From: Pseudomonas sp. Fl4BN1
Lineage (GTDB): Bacteria > Pseudomonadota > Gammaproteobacteria > Pseudomonadales > Pseudomonadaceae
NCBI RefSeq assembly: GCF_009908285.1
Contig: NZ_JAAARM010000002.1
Coordinates: 124,001-188,000, forward strand
Length of the DNA: 64,000 bases
Direction of reading: 5' to 3'
The notes under the pieces are model-generated. The model made no database searches and was not told where the DNA came from. It saw nothing but the letters and a program-made list of their open reading frames with translations. Position 1 is the first letter of the stretch. Each line of letters opens with the position of its first letter. The position numbers and the translations under genes are program-made. Below are positions 3 through 7,500 of this stretch, in pieces.

Positions 3-1520
3 AACGCCCACTGCGCCGACGCCATCGTCTGCATCTCCAACTGCGACAAGATCACCCCCGGCATGCTGATGGCCGCCCTGCGCCTGAACATCCCGGTGAT
101 CTTCGTCTCCGGCGGCCCGATGGAAGCCGGCAAGACCAAGCTCGCCGCTCACGGCCTGGACCTGGTAGACGCCATGGTCATCGCCGCCGACTCCAGCGCT
201 TCTGACGAGAAGGTTGCCGAGTACGAGCGCAGCGCCTGCCCGACCTGCGGCTCGTGCTCCGGCATGTTCACCGCCAACTCGATGAACTGCCTGGTCGAAG
301 CCCTGGGCCTGGCCCTGCCGGGCAACGGTTCGACCCTGGCCACCCACAGCGACCGCGAACAGCTGTTCCTGCAGGCCGGCCGCACCATCGTCGATCTGTG
401 CAAGCGCTACTACGGCGACAACGACGAGTCGGTACTGCCGCGCAACATCGCCAACTTCAAGGCGTTCGAGAACGCCATGATGCTCGACATCGCCATGGGC
501 GGTTCGACCAACACCATCCTGCACCTGCTGGCGGCCGCCCAGGAAGCCGAGATCGATTTCGACCTGCGCGATATCGATCGGCTGTCCCGCAGCGTTCCAC
601 AGCTGTGCAAAGTGGCGCCGAACATCCAGAAGTACCACATGGAAGACGTGCACCGCGCCGGCGGCATCTTCAGCATCCTCGGCTCGCTGGCTCGCGGTGG
701 CCTGTTGCACACCGACCTGCCGACCGTGCACAGCCGTTCCATGAGCGATGCCATCGCCAAGTGGGACATCACCCAGACCAGCGACGAAGCAGTGCACCAC
801 TTCTTCAAGGCTGGCCCGGCGGGCATCCCGACCCAGACCGCCTTCAGCCAGTCGACCCGCTGGGACACCCTGGACGACGACCGTGAAAATGGCTGCATCC
901 GCAGCTTCGAACACGCCTACTCGAAAGAAGGCGGCCTGGCCGTGCTGTACGGCAACATCGCCCAGGACGGCTGCGTGGTGAAGACCGCCGGCGTCGACGA
1001 GTCGATCCATGTCTTCGAAGGCAATGCAAAAATCTTTGAAAGCCAGGACAGCGCCGTGCGCGGCATCCTTGCCGACGAAGTGAAGGCCGGTGACATCGTG
1101 ATCATTCGCTACGAAGGTCCGAAAGGCGGCCCGGGCATGCAGGAAATGCTCTACCCAACTTCGTACCTGAAGTCCAAGGGCTTGGGCAAAGCCTGTGCCC
1201 TGCTGACCGACGGCCGCTTCTCCGGCGGCACCTCGGGCCTGTCCATCGGCCACGCTTCGCCGGAAGCGGCGGCGGGTGGTGCGATTGGCCTGGTGCAGGA
1301 TGGCGACAAGGTCTTGATCGACATTCCGAACCGCTCGATCAACCTGCTGGTCAGCGATGAAGAGCTGGCGGCCCGCCGCGTCGCACAGGACCAGAAAGGC
1401 TGGAAGCCCGTAGAGAAACGCCCACGCAAAGTGACTACTGCGCTGAAGGCTTATGCCCTACTGGCGACCAGTGCCGACAAGGGTGCCGTGCGCAACAAGG
1501 CGATGCTCGACGGCCTGTGA
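3..1520 (+). CDS. ilvD: Dihydroxy-acid dehydratase, 5'-truncated by window edge
   Basis: Cytoplasmic Fe-S enzyme that dehydrates 2,3-dihydroxy-isovalerate and -methylvalerate in valine, leucine and isoleucine synthesis. The frame is open from base 3, so about the first 108 of some 613 residues lie outside the window; 505 are present. Cluster and active-site motifs are visible: NCDKITPGM at residues 13-21 of the visible part, and the cysteine-rich [11 protein letters not shown] segment. Later motifs are [17 protein letters not shown] and [11 protein letters not shown], all typical of the IlvD/Edd family. ILVD rather than 6-phosphogluconate dehydratase is favoured by the NCDKITPGM and CPTCGSCSG spellings. 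A strong intrinsic terminator follows 20 bases after the stop, so it ends its transcript here. Confidence 0.96.
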
Positions 1521-1571: not shown

Positions 1572-1589
1572 GACCTTGGGTTGCCCTTG

Positions 1590-2056
1590 AGGGCCTCTTC
1601 GCTGGCAAGCCAGTTCCAACAGCTTGTAGGAGCCGGCTTGCCGGCGAATGGACCTTCAGACCCTGCATCGCCCTTAAGGACGCCTTCGCTGGCAAGCCAG
1701 CTCCAACAGCTTGTAGGAGCCGGCTTGCCGGCGAATCGGCCTTCAGACCCTGCATCGCCCTTAAGGACGCCTTCGCTGGCAAGCCAGCTCCAACAGCTTG
1801 TAGGAGCCGGCTTGCCGGCGAATCGGCCTTCAGACCCTGCATCGCCCTTAAGGACGCCTTCGCTGGCAAGCCAGCTCCAACAGCTTGTAGGAGCCGGCTT
1901 GCCGGCGAATCGGCCTTCAGACCCTGCATCGCCCTTAAGGACGCCTTCGCTGGCAAGCCAGCTCCAACAGCTTGTAGGGGCCGGCTTGCCGGCGAATGGG
2001 CCTTCAGACCCTGCATCGCCCTTAAGGACGCCTTCGCTGGCAAGCCAGCTCCTACG
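1590..2056. repeat. Tandem REPIN array, 87-bp period (5 units plus a partial)
   Basis: The core GCTGGCAAGCCAG recurs at 1601, 1688, 1775, 1862, 1949 and 2036, exactly 87 bases apart. Each unit holds two inverted REP sequences (TTCGCTGGCAAGCCAGC and GCCGGCTTGCCGGCGAA) joined by a short loop, then a spacer of about 36 bases containing CTTCAGACCCTGCATCGCCC. By eye units 2 to 4 are identical, while units 1 and 5 differ by a few bases, consistent with recent tandem expansion from the middle. The array lies between convergent ilvD and the SGNH lipoprotein gene and fills nearly the whole gap. Because 87 is a multiple of three, meaningless long open frames appear across it on both strands. Confidence 0.92.
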
Positions 2057-2061
2057 GAGGC

Positions 2062-3285
2062 TCAAGGCATGCGTTCGCCCAGCTGCCCGCGCAAGAAGCG
2101 ATACAGCCCATCGGCGCTCTTGCGATAGCCATCGGCGGTCAGGTGGACCAGATCATTGCGCGCCAGGTCATTGCCCTGCCACTGCCTGATCGAGCAATCG
2201 CCCCCCATGAAAGCCTGCCAGTCCCAGAACAGCGTGCGGCTGTTCTTCGCCACGTCCTTCTGGATCTGGATGATCTGCCGCAACGGCTGTGGCTGAGAGG
2301 CCGCACAACTCCCGGCATTGCGCCGTTTGATCGAATCAGGAGCCCCCACCAGCAGGATCACGGTCTTGGGCAGGTTCTTGCGCAGCAGCGCGACCTTCTC
2401 CTGCAACTGGCTGCGGTACAGCTGCAGGTCCAGATCGTCATCGAAGGCTTCGTTGGTGCCATAGGCCAGCACCACCATGTCCGGGCGCAGGGCCTTGAGG
2501 GTTTCCAGCCAGCCGGGCTGCCACTTGTCCAGCACATCCAGGCGCGCGCCATTGATGCCCAGGGAGGAGTAGATCACCCCGGCGCTCTTCTGCCCGAGGA
2601 TGTTCCAACCGCCCAGGGCCAGCCCCTGGTTGTTGGCGAAGCTCAAGTCCAGAGGCATGGTCAGGTTGTTGAACGGCGGGCTGAAGCGCCATTGCCCACC
2701 CGTGGCCGCGAGCATGCGGCTGCTCTTGTTGAGGTTGTCCCGGGCCGTCACGGTGTTGTTAGTGGCTGCCTGGTACAACGCCGAAATGCGGTACTGCTGA
2801 TTGCTCGGCTGGCGCTCGGCGATATGCACCCTGGCACCCGGGGTCATCGGCAGCGACAGGTAACCGCCCAAGGGAAACTGGTTACTCTGTTGGTTACGTG
2901 CCGATACCAGCGACCACTGACGCTTGGCGACACTGAGGATCACGCGCTCGTAACGGGTACCGGGCACCGGCGTCGCAGCCACGAAACCAATGCCGCCGTC
3001 ACCATATTGCGCCTGCAACAGGCGGCGCACTTCACCGCTGAACAGGTCGGCGGCGGTGTGCGAATCCCCCAGTTGCACAATGCTGATGGGCGTACGGTTG
3101 GAGGTACTGAACTTGCGCGCCAACAACGCCAGGTTCGGGTCGGTGCCGGTAGTCACGACCTTTTTCGTGCCGTTCCCGGCCTTGGCCAGGGCCGAGGCAG
3201 GAGTGGCCTGAACCTCGGTGGTCGGGCTGCAACTGCTCAGCAAGGAGATGCCCAGCAATAGCGCAATGCCTTGCAGTCGCCCCAT
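2062..3285 (-). CDS. SGNH/GDSL lipoprotein, Ape1-like O-acetylesterase candidate
   Basis: 407 residues. The N-terminus is a lipoprotein signal with lipobox LSSC, acylated Cys19. SGNH blocks are visible: GDS with nucleophile Ser75 (QLGDSHTAAD), the block II Gly in SSLGINGA, block III in AYGTNEAFDD, and a C-terminal Asp378-x-x-His381 (DLVHL). About 120 residues rich in predicted beta structure sit between block I and block II. This matches the layout of Neisseria peptidoglycan O-acetylesterase Ape1, where a CBM35-like domain is inserted in the SGNH fold. The start is supported by GGAGC about 11 bases upstream, and the gene begins 1 base after the preceding stop. It could remove acetyl groups from, or help attach them to, a periplasmic glycan. 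Substrate not proven. Confidence 0.72.
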   Translation of the reverse strand: MGRLQGIALLLGISLLSSCSPTTEVQATPASALAKAGNGTKKVVTTGTDPNLALLARKFSTSNRTPISIVQLGDSHTAADLFSGEVRRLLQAQYGDGGIGFVAATPVPGTRYERVILSVAKRQWSLVSARNQQSNQFPLGGYLSLPMTPGARVHIAERQPSNQQYRISALYQAATNNTVTARDNLNKSSRMLAATGGQWRFSPPFNNLTMPLDLSFANNQGLALGGWNILGQKSAGVIYSSLGINGARLDVLDKWQPGWLETLKALRPDMVVLAYGTNEAFDDDLDLQLYRSQLQEKVALLRKNLPKTVILLVGAPDSIKRRNAGSCAASQPQPLRQIIQIQKDVAKNSRTLFWDWQAFMGGDCSIRQWQGNDLARNDLVHLTADGYRKSADGLYRFLRGQLGERMP

Positions 3286-3286
3286 A

Positions 3287-4438
3287 TCAGTGCTGCTCCG
3301 TCAATTGTTCACTGGGAAAGCTGATCAGCGAGATCACACGCTCAGCGATCAGTCTCTGTCCAGTGGGGGTGAAATGAATACCGTCGTCGACCCGGGTCTT
3401 GACCTTCTTGCCATCCCCGGTGGTGCGGTAATAGGAAAACTCGTCGTTCTGGTAACCGAGAATCTCGTTGGCCGAGACAAAATGCTGGTGGTACAGCTCG
3501 ATCTGGCTCTTGTACAGCTCGCTCAGGTAGGCCATTGCCGTAGACAGCTTGGCCTTCTCCATGTTCGGCGGACCGACCCAGATCACTTGCACATTATGCG
3601 CCTGGGCGGTTTCGAGAATCGAATCGATGCGCCGGCGGTAGGCTTCCTCCCAGTCCGGCTTCTTGAAGCGCAGGAACGGCTTGCCCTTGACCTCAGGCAT
3701 GTCCCACGGGTCGTTGGGGCCGAGGAAGATCACCATCAGGCGAATATTCGGATTGCCGGCCAGGGTGCTTTCAACGGTCTTGGGCCAGTTGAAGAAGCTT
3801 GGATAGGCCAGCCCGGTGCTCTGTTTGCTGAGGTTGAGGCTCTTGACGTTGTAGCGTTTGCGCAAGGTGTTGGCCATGTGCGGCGCCACGCCCTGCATCA
3901 AGGAGTCACCGACGAAGAACACCTCATCTCCGGCCGCCAGGCTGGCCATCAACGGCGTGCCAGTCCCCTGCTCGACCATCGGCGGGTGGTTGATCACAGG
4001 AGCCACCACCACAGGTTGCGGGTGGACCACAGCGGGATCCGGCGCGACTACCACTGCCGGATGAGACGCCGGTACAGCCGGTGGCTGCTCGGCCTGGACG
4101 GTGGGAGCCGAAACAACCTTCGGCAACGGCTCCGGCTCTTCATCTGCGGCCGCGTCAGACTGGGCCACCAAGTTCACGTCGGCCTGGTCGGTAAAATTGC
4201 CGACAAAAGCCACCCGGGCACTCTCAAGGTTCTGATTGAGTTGCGCGCCAAAGCGCCACTGCGGGTTCTGCGACAACCCTGGAATCTCGCAGCCTTCGTG
4301 GTATTTCTGCTGGCAGTAGAGGCTGATCGATTGCTGGTTGAACCACACCAGCAACAGGCTCGTCACCACCAGGGCATAGAGCACCTTGGCCGCACTACCG
4401 AGACTGGCCGACAACGGCGAACGGTTAGAAACTGGCAT
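3287..4438 (-). CDS. Membrane-anchored SGNH (DUF459-type) protein, O-acetylation partner
   Basis: 383 residues from the ATG at 4438. An upstream in-frame extension is only the antisense-like end of the MBOAT gene. One N-terminal membrane segment (residues 18-33) is followed by an acidic and then a proline/valine-rich linker (about 95-155), placing the catalytic part in the periplasm. SGNH features are block I FFVGDSLMQG with Ser179, GPNDPWDMP (block III-like) and the C-terminal DDGIHFT with Asp352 and His355. It overlaps the MBOAT gene by 14 bases, so translation is probably coupled. Proteins of this type work with MBOAT transporters to place acetyl groups on periplasmic polymers; that partnership here is inferred from the operon. 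Confidence 0.75.
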   Translation of the reverse strand: MPVSNRSPLSASLGSAAKVLYALVVTSLLLVWFNQQSISLYCQQKYHEGCEIPGLSQNPQWRFGAQLNQNLESARVAFVGNFTDQADVNLVAQSDAAADEEPEPLPKVVSAPTVQAEQPPAVPASHPAVVVAPDPAVVHPQPVVVAPVINHPPMVEQGTGTPLMASLAAGDEVFFVGDSLMQGVAPHMANTLRKRYNVKSLNLSKQSTGLAYPSFFNWPKTVESTLAGNPNIRLMVIFLGPNDPWDMPEVKGKPFLRFKKPDWEEAYRRRIDSILETAQAHNVQVIWVGPPNMEKAKLSTAMAYLSELYKSQIELYHQHFVSANEILGYQNDEFSYYRTTGDGKKVKTRVDDGIHFTPTGQRLIAERVISLISFPSEQLTEQH

Positions 4439-5837
4439 AGATGAACCCCGGCACGCCCGACGGTGAGGCGAAGATGACCAGACAGATAAACAGCCCCAGC
4501 GGCACTGGATACAGCAGCCACGGCAAGCCGGTGGCGGCGTCGAACACCCGGCGCAGCAGTGCCACGATCCGCGGGTAAAGAGCGACGAACAACAGGCAGC
4601 CCAGCAACGACGCGGCACTGCTGGCCAGCCCGGCGAAGGACAAGCCACCCAGGCCCGCGAGCATGTCCAGGGCATCGGGCAGGGTCGCGCAACGGAAGAA
4701 GATCCAGGCGAACGCCACATAGTGGAAGGTCAGCAAGCGGGCCGTAAGGTCCGCGCCGATCCAGCTGGGCCCCCGGGCCAGCAACGGACTGCACAGTTTG
4801 TACAGTGCCAGGCCGACGCCATGCAGCGCGCCCCAGATGATGAAGTTGGCGCTAGCACCGTGCCACAGCCCGGAAATCAGCATGGCCAGCAGCATGTTCA
4901 GATTGCCGCGCCAGACCGGACCCCGGTTGCCCCCCAGGGGGATGTACACGTAGTCGCGAATGAAGGTCGACAGACTGATATGCCAGCGCCCCCAGAACTC
5001 CTTGAGGTTGCGCGCCGCATAGGGGTAGTTGAAGTTCAAGGGCAGGCGAAAGCCCAGCAGCAAGGCGATGCCGGTCACCAGATCGGTATAGCCGCTGAAG
5101 TTGAAGTAGATCAGGAACGAATAGCCGTAGACCGCCCGCAGGATCTGCTCGGCGGAAAACGCCACCGGGCTATCGAACACCGGATCGACCCACTCGTTGG
5201 CCAGCCACGAGCTGAGGAAGAACAGCTTGACCACCGCCACTGCGATCAAACCCAGCGCCCGTTGCGGCTCCAGCACCTGGCGCAACTGCGGCGGGTTGAT
5301 CTGCGCCAGCATCGGTATCGCCCGGTTTACCGGACCAGCAATCAGGCTGGGGAAAAACGCCAGGTACAGCGCCAGGTCGAACGGCGAGCCGGGCGTCAGT
5401 TCACGGCGATTGATCGACACCAGGTAGCTGACCGAGTGGAAGGCGTAGAACGACAGCCCCACCGGCAGTAGCACTTCCAGCAGCGGCAGCGACACTTCCA
5501 CTCCAAACTGAGCGAAGGCGTTCTGCACCGTGCTGGTGAAGAAGTCCTGGTACTTGAACAGGTAGAAGGCCCCCAGCACCAACAGCAACATCAGGCCGTT
5601 GACCCAGCCTCGCCCGGGGTAACGCTGGCTCAACAGGCCGAGCAGGTACACCAGGGCCGTGTAGCCCAGCAGGATGTAGAGGAAGTTCAGGCTGAAACTG
5701 GCGAGGATCGCGTAGCTGGCGGCCAGCAACAGGCCATTCTGCAACCGCAGGCTGAAGCCCAGGCCCCAGTACAGAACGAAGAACAAGATGAAGCAGAGGC
5801 CGAATTCAATCGAGAGATAGCTCACAACGTAGTCCAT
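4425..5837 (-). CDS. MBOAT family membrane O-acyltransferase (AlgI/PatA-like)
   Basis: 470 residues, highly hydrophobic with about ten membrane segments. The MBOAT signature region FWGRWHISLSTFIRDYVY, the following IPLGGNR, and the catalytic-type histidine in SGLWHGAS (His326) with a second His in GALHG (339) are clear. Family members such as AlgI, PatA and DltB pass acyl groups from a cytoplasmic donor across the inner membrane. As first gene of the three-gene operon it would supply acetyl groups to the two SGNH proteins. I start at the ATG at 5837; a TTG nine bases upstream is also possible and neither has a clear ribosome site. No alginate or cellulose genes lie nearby, so those substrates are not indicated. 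Confidence 0.85.
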   Translation of the reverse strand: MDYVVSYLSIEFGLCFILFFVLYWGLGFSLRLQNGLLLAASYAILASFSLNFLYILLGYTALVYLLGLLSQRYPGRGWVNGLMLLLVLGAFYLFKYQDFFTSTVQNAFAQFGVEVSLPLLEVLLPVGLSFYAFHSVSYLVSINRRELTPGSPFDLALYLAFFPSLIAGPVNRAIPMLAQINPPQLRQVLEPQRALGLIAVAVVKLFFLSSWLANEWVDPVFDSPVAFSAEQILRAVYGYSFLIYFNFSGYTDLVTGIALLLGFRLPLNFNYPYAARNLKEFWGRWHISLSTFIRDYVYIPLGGNRGPVWRGNLNMLLAMLISGLWHGASANFIIWGALHGVGLALYKLCSPLLARGPSWIGADLTARLLTFHYVAFAWIFFRCATLPDALDMLAGLGGLSFAGLASSAASLLGCLLFVALYPRIVALLRRVFDAATGLPWLLYPVPLGLFICLVIFASPSGVPGFIYASF

Positions 5838-5977
5838 TACGTGCAATCGGGGATGAACCCGGCACAGGGAGAGCAGGCGAGGGAAGAGAAACGGGCGCGA
5901 TTATGGCAGAGGGGGTTTGCGAGTCACAAGTTGAAACATTCTCGGCATATTGCCGGTGCCTACACAGGGTGACAGAC

Positions 5978-6441
5978 GTCCTGTAGGAGCTGGCTTGCCA
6001 GCGAAGACGTCCGTGAATGCGCCTCAAGGAACAAGGGCCTCTTCGCCGGCAAGCCGGCTCCTACAAAGGGGGGCAGGCACTCTGTAGGAGCTGGCTTGCC
6101 AGCGAAGGCGTCCGTAAGTGCACCTCAAGGACCAAGGGCCTCTTCGCCGACAAGCCGGCTCCTACAAAGGGGGCAGACATCCTGTAGGAGCTGGCTTGCC
6201 AGCGAAGGCGTCCGTAAGTGCACCTCCAGGACCAAGGGCCTCTTCGCCGGCAAGCCGGCTCCTACAAAGGGGGCAGGCGTTCTGTAGGAGCTGGCTTGCC
6301 AGCGAAGGCGTCCGTAAGTGCACCTCCAGGACCAAGGGCCTCTTCGCCGGCAAGCCGGCTCCTACAAAGGGGGGCAGGCGTCCTGTAGGAGCTGGCTTGC
6401 CAGCGAAGGCGTCCGTAAGTGCACCTCCAGGCCCAAGGGGT
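5978..6441. repeat. Second tandem REPIN array, 100/101-bp period
   Basis: The string CTGTAGGAGCTGGCTTGCC starts at 5981, 6082, 6182, 6282 and 6383, spacing 101, 100, 100, 101. Each unit has a REP (GCTGGCTTGCCAGCGAA), a spacer containing GTCCGTAAGTGCACCTC, and an inverted REP (TTCGCCGGCAAGCCGGC) followed by CTCCTACAAAGGGGG. The last unit is cut off just before the pchP stop codon. Unit composition and spacer are unrelated to the array at 1590-2056, so the two expanded independently. The gap between the MBOAT start (5837) and 5978 holds 140 bases in which the operon promoter should lie; I could not pick one out confidently. Confidence 0.92.
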
Positions 6442-6444
6442 GGG

Positions 6445-7500
6445 CTACTGAATGTCCTCCGGCTTGACGATCACCCAGTTCTTGTCCGCAGTCACCGGCA
6501 GCCCTTCCTTGGCCTGGGCGGCGGCGTGCTTGGCAATCATGCCGTTGAGCTGGGTCATGTACTTGTCCTTGCGGTTGACCCACAGGTGTATGCCGCCCTT
6601 GGCCACGTCGACGCTGTGGAACAGCATGTAGCCGTCGCTGGTCGGAGTATCGCCGCCCACCAGTACCGGTTTCTTCCATTCATCGATGTAGGTCAGGATC
6701 GCCGCGTGCTTGCCCGCCATCCAGGTGGCCGGGGTCCACAGGTAGGGGGTCAGCTCCAGGCCGAGGTTGGCTTTCTCGTCATACTTGCCATCAGTGATCT
6801 GTTTGCGCGCGGTGGTCAGGGCGCCGGTCTTGCGGTCCTTGAGCAGCGTGCTCACGCCGATCACGTTCTGCGGCTTGACGTTGTAGCCGTACTTGGGATC
6901 GGCAGCGACCATGCGCACCAGCTCTTCGGAGGCGGCGGTCATCACATAGACCTCGATGCCGTTCTCCATCAGCTTGTTGTACAGCTCGGCCTGGCCGGTG
7001 AAGACCTTGGGCGGGTTGACCTCGATGGTCTTGACCACGTCACCGTCGTAATAGGTGCTCGGCACCGGCTTGCCGGACGCCATCAGTTCATCAACGTAGC
7101 CCTTGAGCTCCTTGAGGGTGAAACCCGAGAACACCTGGGCCACCCAGGGGTAGCAGACCATGTCGTCGACTTCGCAGAGGCGGTAGTAGTAGCTGAACAG
7201 GCTTTCCTTGTGGTCCGCGGTGTCCTTGAACGGAATCAGCTTCAACGACGGATCGAGGGTCTCGCGGGTGATCAGGCCCTTGTTCTCCATGTAGGGCAGC
7301 AGGGATTCTTCCAGGTCGTAGCGGTAACTGGTGTTGTCCATGTCGAACACCGCGTAGTTACCCTTGTTGGCGTTGGCCGCGATCATTGCGTCCAACTGCT
7401 TGGCCTGGTCTTGCGGCCAGTGCTTCAACTCGGTGGCAAAGGCCTGGCCGGCGAGGCCCAGGCAGAGTGCAACAGCTAGGAATTTCGGCGCGAACTTCAT
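6445..7500 (-). CDS. pchP: Phosphorylcholine phosphatase (periplasmic HAD enzyme)
   Basis: 351 residues with a Sec signal peptide, cleavage predicted after AFA at residue 22. It releases phosphate from phosphorylcholine (and other phosphomonoesters) in the periplasm, freeing choline from host or membrane phospholipids. HAD motifs fall, in mature numbering, exactly where I remember them for the P. aeruginosa enzyme: DMDNT at 31-35, TAA at 166-168 (SAA in P. aeruginosa), Lys242, and GDTPTSD at 261-267. An AGGGAGAA ribosome site lies upstream of the ATG. The gene stands alone: no choline, betaine or phospholipase genes adjoin it, and the REPIN array begins three bases past its stop. Confidence 0.93.
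   Translation of the reverse strand: MKFAPKFLAVALCLGLAGQAFATELKHWPQDQAKQLDAMIAANANKGNYAVFDMDNTSYRYDLEESLLPYMENKGLITRETLDPSLKLIPFKDTADHKESLFSYYYRLCEVDDMVCYPWVAQVFSGFTLKELKGYVDELMASGKPVPSTYYDGDVVKTIEVNPPKVFTGQAELYNKLMENGIEVYVMTAASEELVRMVAADPKYGYNVKPQNVIGVSTLLKDRKTGALTTARKQITDGKYDEKANLGLELTPYLWTPATWMAGKHAAILTYIDEWKKPVLVGGDTPTSDGYMLFHSVDVAKGGIHLWVNRKDKYMTQLNGMIAKHAAAQAKEGLPVTADKNWVIVKPEDIQ

Follow-up and report, generated by a model that had tools for sequence, protein, structure and literature searches.

The 64,000 nucleotides of Pseudomonas sp. Fl4BN1 analysed here (contig NZ_JAAARM010000002.1, positions 124,001 to 188,000; this whole stretch is called the window below) carry three minus-strand open reading frames in the order patA-patB-ape1 (window 5837-2062). 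We are fairly confident, with a rough probability of 0.88, that this cassette is a complete operon for peptidoglycan O-acetylation (OAP). The assignment draws on gene content and order, homology, predicted folds, catalytic residues, the co-occurrence of the genes and purifying selection. A first-pass annotation had described linked frames for an MBOAT protein, an SGNH protein and an SGNH lipoprotein, and we find them exactly there. It had also proposed an Ape1-like layout within a peptidoglycan O-acetylation cassette. This is borne out by the gene order and by the grouping of all three proteins with PatA, PatB and Ape1, since PatB and Ape1 are recognized by sequence and predicted fold and since PatA is nearer to the PatA of Providencia than to the alginate-type MBOAT protein of its own genome.

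The lipoprotein Ape1 matches the Pfam domains Ape1_N (64.9 bits, cut-off 27) and Lipase_GDSL_2, and a lipobox, LLSSC, is visible in its sequence. Its nearest relatives in the PDB are Ape1 of Neisseria meningitidis (4k3u, E = 4.5e-51) and then Ape1 of Campylobacter jejuni. Ape1_N sits between block I (GDSH, Ser75) and block II (GINGA, Gly246), just where a large beta-rich insert had been expected from the first reading, and in an AlphaFold2 model built from 31 sequences this stretch is strand-rich. The model has a mean predicted local distance difference test score (pLDDT) of 84 and a predicted template modelling score (pTM) of 0.83. Foldseek places 4k3u on top (E = 8.8e-33), and VIA-align superposes 342 residues on this structure with Z 42.1 and a root-mean-square deviation (rmsd) of 2.0 A; the first row which is not an Ape1 follows at Z 18.9. 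The insert is thus present in the predicted structure, and the corresponding domain of N. gonorrhoeae Ape1 (NgApe1) is termed CBM35-like in a 2018 review (PMC6174289). We see the Ape1_N domain within the full-length model and take the label CBM35-like from that review. The active-site residues of NgApe1 named there, Ser80, Gly236, Asn268, Asp366 and His369, correspond in the alignment with 4k3u to Ser75, Gly246, Asn278, Asp378 and His381. The Ser75/Asp378/His381 triad that had been read from the sequence therefore matches NgApe1, and in an alignment of 31 rows Ser75 is invariant while Asp378 and His381 are conserved to at least 90%. Among 49 Pseudomonas loci the motifs GDSHTAAD and G[IV]NGA occur in all and YGxNEA in 48 (the miss is L049). 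The Asp/His pair of block V is retained in 47 of them; the search pattern missed three, one of which, L058, has both residues within DQVHL. With the insert between blocks I and II and all five equivalents of the NgApe1 residues the protein belongs with Ape1. In two loci, L049 (9055-9924) and L043 (8966-10105), the 3′ part of ape1 is shortened or altered, which could be decay or an assembly error. A scripted lipobox count (44 of 54 Pseudomonas-like and 15 of 26 Enterobacterales loci) relied on a crude pattern and is not used as evidence.

PatB matches Pfam DUF459 with 224.1 bits. Its nearest PDB relatives are PatB of N. gonorrhoeae (NgPatB; 7tjb, E = 3.7e-61) and then PatB of C. jejuni. In the structural model a helix at residues 8-33 is the likely membrane anchor. 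Of solved structures, four PatB entries and C. jejuni Cj0610c come nearest to its SGNH part (Z 23.2-24.7), the next row having Z 16.2; on 7tjb the values are Z 24.7 and rmsd 4.5 over 208 residues. Residues Ser133, Ser161, Asn196, Asp302 and His305 of the active site of NgPatB (PMC12148441) align, with 7tjb as reference, to Ser179, Ser207, Asn242, Asp352 and His355, and all five are invariant in an alignment of 27 rows. Ser207 of block II occupies the position which is Gly in typical SGNH enzymes, and so does its counterpart in NgPatB. A patB gene is present in 46 Pseudomonas loci, one of which, L043, reaches the contig edge before patA. The motifs GDS[LM]MQ, G[PA]NDPWD and DDGxHFT are found in all 46 and the block II motif NLSxQSTG in 45, the miss (L079) being masked sequence. 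DUF459, the Ser-Asp-His triad, the Asn of block III and a block II residue other than Gly are thus all found in this protein, as in PatB. Two side observations concern its architecture. Between anchor and SGNH domain lies a Pro/Val-rich linker (residues 92-162, window 3953-4165) in which 30 of 71 residues are Pro or Val, and the length is 342-414 amino acids in 45 of the 46 loci, the 46th (L043, 265 amino acids) being truncated by the contig edge.

PatA is an MBOAT protein (Pfam, 74.5 bits) with similarity to DltB structures (E = 7.5e-23). It is 48.7% identical to PatA of Providencia stuartii and 35.3% identical, over 382 columns, to the alginate-type MBOAT protein of the same genome. The motif GLWHGAS with His326, probably the catalytic histidine, is present in all 45 Pseudomonas loci that have patA. 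All 45 proteins likewise end in FIYA[SG]F, an instance of the C-terminal acyl-shuttle motif FxYxxF described for PatA (PMC12148441). In a wider comparison, in which 80 named loci were kept of 391 stretches encoding a relative, F.Y..F stands near the end of 74 of 76 PatA frames; the misses, L104 and L152, are frames that end differently. By the conserved histidine and the C-terminal shuttle motif PatA falls within the OAP clusters. The first-pass label of an MBOAT transporter was right in the family but not in the activity, as the protein would rather be an acyltransferase which hands acetyl across the membrane. D-alanylation of the Dlt type was considered and dropped. PatA scores 144.4 bits against the DltB model TIGR04091, below its equivalog cut-off of 375, and its shuttle motif is fused to the MBOAT protein itself, whereas in the Dlt system it is carried by a separate protein, DltX (PMC12148441).

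Pairs of MBOAT and SGNH proteins also serve the acetylation of alginate and cellulose (PMC12148441). The cassette could therefore acetylate an exopolysaccharide or O-antigen, with the lipoprotein trimming that polymer, and the identity of PatA to the second MBOAT protein of the genome would fit such a role. We consider this very unlikely. The cassette has housekeeping genes around it, and of the neighbours examined (ilvD, a phosphorylcholine phosphatase gene, a sodium:dicarboxylate symporter gene and a dihydrofolate reductase gene) none serves glycan biosynthesis. The genome has only two MBOAT matches, and the second lies on another contig between genes for an alginate lyase and an AlgX-type SGNH protein, so that an alginate-type pair exists apart from the cassette. 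PatB gives no meaningful alignment to this AlgX-type protein (best E = 0.03 over 23 columns). Moreover, the Ape1 and PatB models score far higher against solved wall enzymes than against other SGNH structures. The exopolysaccharide or O-antigen alternative, which had been raised at the outset, is thus weakened. An assignment of the cassette itself to the alginate proteins AlgI, AlgJ and AlgX was rejected as well: PatB is a DUF459 and not a PF16822 protein, and the genes lie at ilvD and the phosphatase gene, outside any alginate cluster. The MBOAT protein of P. donghuensis P482 lies in an alginate cluster (PMC4880745) and is distinct from the PatA of the cassette.

Several observations speak against a role in peptidoglycan O-acetylation. 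In the part of the literature covered we saw no wall chemistry for any Pseudomonas that carries the cassette genes. The 2018 review states that some pseudomonads, P. aeruginosa by name, do not O-acetylate their peptidoglycan (PMC6174289), and a P. aeruginosa muropeptide paper, where it names further modifications, gives de-N-acetylation, methylation and deamination but not O-acetylation. In a survey of 2005 Agrobacterium tumefaciens was only minimally O-acetylated despite its Ape-like genes (PMC1199599), and thus the genes alone are no proof of the modification. On the side of the sequences, the 35% identity of PatA to an alginate-type MBOAT protein is not negligible, the PatB model is moderate (mean pLDDT 71, pTM 0.58) and the third-position G+C of patB, 0.78, lies below the 0.82-0.91 of its neighbours. 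Finally, the only NCBIfam match of PatB, to the PatB equivalog model NF045704, has 292.9 bits and so falls below the cut-off of 580, a value attained in none of 398 Pseudomonas genomes. The PatB proteins of P. stuartii (289.5), Proteus mirabilis (287.8), Photorhabdus (271.7) and Budvicia (285.2) also score below 580, so this cut-off is narrower than the PatB family.

Still less probable than the acetylation of an exported polymer is that the cassette acts on another periplasmic glycan, for instance on osmoregulated periplasmic glucans, and that peptidoglycan is not its main substrate. The choice of acceptor can be loose, as NgPatB accepts chitooligosaccharides in vitro (PMC9487903). However, the signatures found here, at the level of residues and of structure, are those of peptidoglycan enzymes, and the bacteria of the 2005 survey which have such clusters had acetylated peptidoglycan, A. 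tumefaciens being the weak case (PMC1199599). We retain peptidoglycan as the presumed substrate.

Going by the homologous systems of the gonococcus and of Campylobacter, peptidoglycan O-acetylation could proceed in the following steps. PatA would take the acetyl group from cytoplasmic acetyl-CoA and, by means of its catalytic histidine (probably His326), load it onto Tyr467 of its own FIYASF on the periplasmic side. PatB, held by one N-terminal helix, would then accept the acetyl group on Ser179 and pass it to the C-6 hydroxyl of N-acetylmuramic acid in peptidoglycan. The lipoprotein Ape1, which has a carbohydrate-binding-like insert, may strip the acetyl group again where lytic transglycosylases must cut. 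The likely benefit would be a control of autolysins at the level of their substrate together with resistance to muramidases. In characterised systems both patA and patB are needed and together suffice, and ape1 mutants are hyper-acetylated (PMC12148441).

The cassette is presumably transcribed as a single unit. The patA/patB overlap of 14 bp is found in 45 of 45 Pseudomonas loci which hold both genes, and it suggests translational coupling; between the patB stop codon and the ATG of ape1 there is a gap of one base. One could imagine that in this lineage the intact genes are not expressed or are in decay. The altered ape1 ends of L049 and L043 hint at decay elsewhere in the genus, ape1 occurs without patB in 3 of 49 genomes, and before patA there is a single promoter-like place, where two overlapping sites were counted (0.6 expected). 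However, none of the three frames is interrupted, and the ratio of nonsynonymous to synonymous substitution rates (dN/dS) is low. It ranges from 0.05 to 0.22 over 24 comparisons (8 pairs and 3 genes), with 0.05-0.10 for patA, 0.05-0.09 for ape1 and 0.15-0.22 for patB in seven close pairs and 0.14, 0.17 and 0.21, respectively, in the eighth pair, L041/L042. We hold silence or decay to be the least probable of the alternatives considered, and expect that the cassette is expressed. Two further ape1 pairs of the P. putida group give 0.13 and 0.08. Separately we note that the value for patB is 1.3-3.7 times that of patA and ape1 in the same pair.

Table 1. Cassette, domains and flanking repeats in the window
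Feature	Position	Strand	Basis or remark
patA-like MBOAT O-acetyltransferase	4425..5837	-	470 aa; Pfam MBOAT, DltB structures, identity to P. stuartii PatA
patB-like membrane-anchored SGNH/DUF459 O-acetyltransferase	3287..4438	-	383 aa; DUF459, NCBIfam PatB, 7tjb
ape1-like lipoprotein, putative peptidoglycan O-acetylesterase	2062..3285	-	407 aa; 4k3u by sequence, Foldseek and VIA-align
C-terminal FIYASF, FxYxxF acyl-shuttle motif (Tyr467) of PatA	4428..4445	-	motif as in PMC12148441
PatB SGNH catalytic domain, residues 172-369 (Ser179, Ser207, Asn242, Asp352, His355)	3332..3925	-	range of Pfam DUF459
Ape1_N insert domain, residues 97-202	2680..2997	-	PF22753, 64.9 bits; strand-rich in model
patA/patB overlap, 14 bp	4425..4438	-	suggests translational coupling
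REP-like tandem array, 87-bp period, 5.4 copies, beyond ape1	1583..2052		Tandem Repeats Finder (TRF)
REP-like tandem array, 100-bp period, 4.8 copies, before patA	5952..6439		TRF

The cassette is flanked on one side by ilvD (63-1520, plus strand; Pfam ILVD_EDD) and on the other side by the phosphorylcholine phosphatase gene (6445-7500, minus strand; 4as2, E = 9.4e-183). Between these genes and the cassette lie the two repeat arrays of Table 1, which we take to be of the kind called REP. Across the genome the repeat word was counted 884 times (reversed control 0), and thus these repeats are not peculiar to this site.

Ape1_N is found once in the genome, namely at the cassette. It is present in 8 of 95 near genomes, the own one included and all of them Pseudomonas, in 49 of 398 Pseudomonas genomes and in none of 14 control genomes. 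NCBIfam PatB, searched at E = 0.001 with no hit above the cut-off, is detected in 46 of the 398 genomes, all within the 49 with Ape1_N. We fetched these 49 stretches, each of 19 kb or less. The three genes stand in order on one strand in 45; L043 reaches the contig edge, and L054, L056 and L062 hold ape1 alone. Among the 80 kept loci all three genes are matched in 76. By their record titles these loci belong to P. protegens, P. piscis, P. chlororaphis, P. morbosilactucae, P. entomophila, P. donghuensis and other pseudomonads and, beyond Pseudomonas, to Budvicia, Providencia, Proteus, Photorhabdus and Xenorhabdus. The species names give an impression of insect association. The cassettes filed under Pantoea sp. 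Cy-639 (L109) and under a Paucimonas metagenome-assembled genome (L132) are nested in Pseudomonas clades, with an ispA-like gene nearby; these two records are probably mislabelled Pseudomonas.

Within the genus the cassette has two or more chromosomal sites. The site between ilvD and the phosphatase gene is seen in 13 of the 49 stretches, ten times with the cassette and three times with a lone ape1. An ispA-like polyprenyl synthetase gene and/or a ribB-like gene is present in 33 stretches (both in 18, ispA only in 11, ribB only in 4), and three stretches, one at a contig end, have neither kind of flank. Of 28 genomes searched for the phosphatase gene, 20 contain it. In 16 of these 20 stretches ilvD adjoins it at about 70-710 bp without a cassette match in between, and this is therefore a site of presence and absence; two of the 16 genomes, G024 and G051, hold the cassette at another place. 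The other four comprise one genome with a lone ape1 and three without ilvD in range. In a concatenated tree of 75 rows the Pseudomonas-type cassettes are split from all 25 Enterobacterales rows used, with a support of 100 in the Shimodaira-Hasegawa-like approximate likelihood ratio test (SH-aLRT), and the cassette of the window belongs to a starred set of 7 rows; P. protegens and P. piscis, whose cassettes lie at the same site, are in this set too. This tree and a second one for ape1 are quick trees with a single-matrix model, and both gave warnings that long branches meet. We see no sign of a recent import from Enterobacterales, given the separate branch and a G+C of 61.8% in the cassette as well as in the window. 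The several sites may reflect an older transfer or a relocation.

The lone ape1 genes deserve a separate remark. They lie at the ilvD-phosphatase site without patA and patB in L054 (8872-10050), L056 (8878-10092) and L062 (9065-10279), and also in L129, L130 and L134, and the six rows form one clade in the ape1 tree. A search with NCBIfam PatB gave no match in the genomes of L054, L056 and L062. The active-site motifs of these three proteins are intact; L054 has LSGC, and L056 and L062 are without an obvious lipobox. Pairs of lone ape1 genes show dN/dS values of 0.39 (a very close pair) and 0.12 (with saturated dS).

The OAP system as such is already known, and what seems unreported is its occurrence in Pseudomonas. 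The first-pass idea of an undescribed system goes too far. Our searches of open-licence PMC papers, preprints not included, brought up no report of a patA/patB/ape1 cluster from Pseudomonas. The list of species with OAP clusters in the 2018 review includes no Pseudomonas, and a footnote there allows for PatA and/or PatB homologues in other Gram-negative bacteria (PMC6174289).

Peptidoglycan O-acetylation blocks lysozyme in other bacteria. If the cassette is expressed, it would qualify the view that the wall of pseudomonads is not O-acetylated, and it would offer a genetically tractable group for testing the purpose of the modification. It would also be relevant to how these bacteria tolerate lysozyme, how they control autolysis and how innate immunity recognizes them, and with Ape1_N in 49 of 398 genomes there is a natural contrast of presence and absence inside one genus. 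As a speculation which is probably wrong, about one Pseudomonas species in eight, among them some filed under P. protegens, P. chlororaphis and P. entomophila, might O-acetylate and de-O-acetylate their peptidoglycan and so be guarded against the lysozymes of hosts and predators, above all in invertebrates. A related lineage of the P. veronii and P. palleroniana type, with the esterase but without the transferases, would then use the esterase otherwise, for example for stripping acetyl from foreign walls. The finding is of moderate interest in that it can be tested directly and touches on an absence stated in the literature.

How does the cassette compare with other systems? Its gene order is that of the OAP clusters of the Ape1a type, which is patA, patB (ape2), ape1a (PMC1199599). 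Within the same genome the alginate-type pair (G000:C91, L190) has an MBOAT protein that also ends in an FxYxxF motif, FLYFQF, and a separate partner of the SGNH type. It differs in that the partner is of the AlgX/AlgJ type (PF16822) instead of DUF459 and in that the pair adjoins an alginate lyase gene. In C. jejuni the resemblance lies in Ape1 (8gld, Z 36.9) and PatB (8tlb, Z 23.6), but CjPatB has Asn in block II where the Pseudomonas protein and NgPatB have Ser. N. gonorrhoeae and N. meningitidis likewise have the three genes patA-patB-ape1, and they share the PatB triad with the block II Ser as well as the insert fold and the five active-site residues of Ape1. The identity in structural alignments is only 30% for Ape1 and 41% for the PatB domain, however, and in contrast to Neisseria the Pseudomonas PatB has the Pro/Val-rich linker and its genus is not credited with O-acetylation.

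The nearest relatives outside Pseudomonas, among the 80 loci kept, are found in Providencia, Proteus, Photorhabdus, Xenorhabdus and Budvicia. Their loci have the same order and strand, and in six of seven loci inspected the 14-bp overlap and the FxYxxF end; in the seventh, L152, the patA frame ends early. They differ by an identity of 36-51%, by forming a separate clade (SH-aLRT 100) and by lacking the ilvD-phosphatase and the ispA/ribB flanks. P. stuartii and P. mirabilis share all three genes and their order, with identities of 47-49% for PatA, 39-42% for PatB and 44-47% for Ape1. Going by the titles of cited papers, both are said to O-acetylate their peptidoglycan. Both also stand in the review table of known and hypothetical producers (PMC6174289). 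Four Photorhabdus loci of the kept set hold all three genes, and for Photorhabdus luminescens the 2005 survey gives 65.6% base-labile acetate per muramic acid (PMC1199599).

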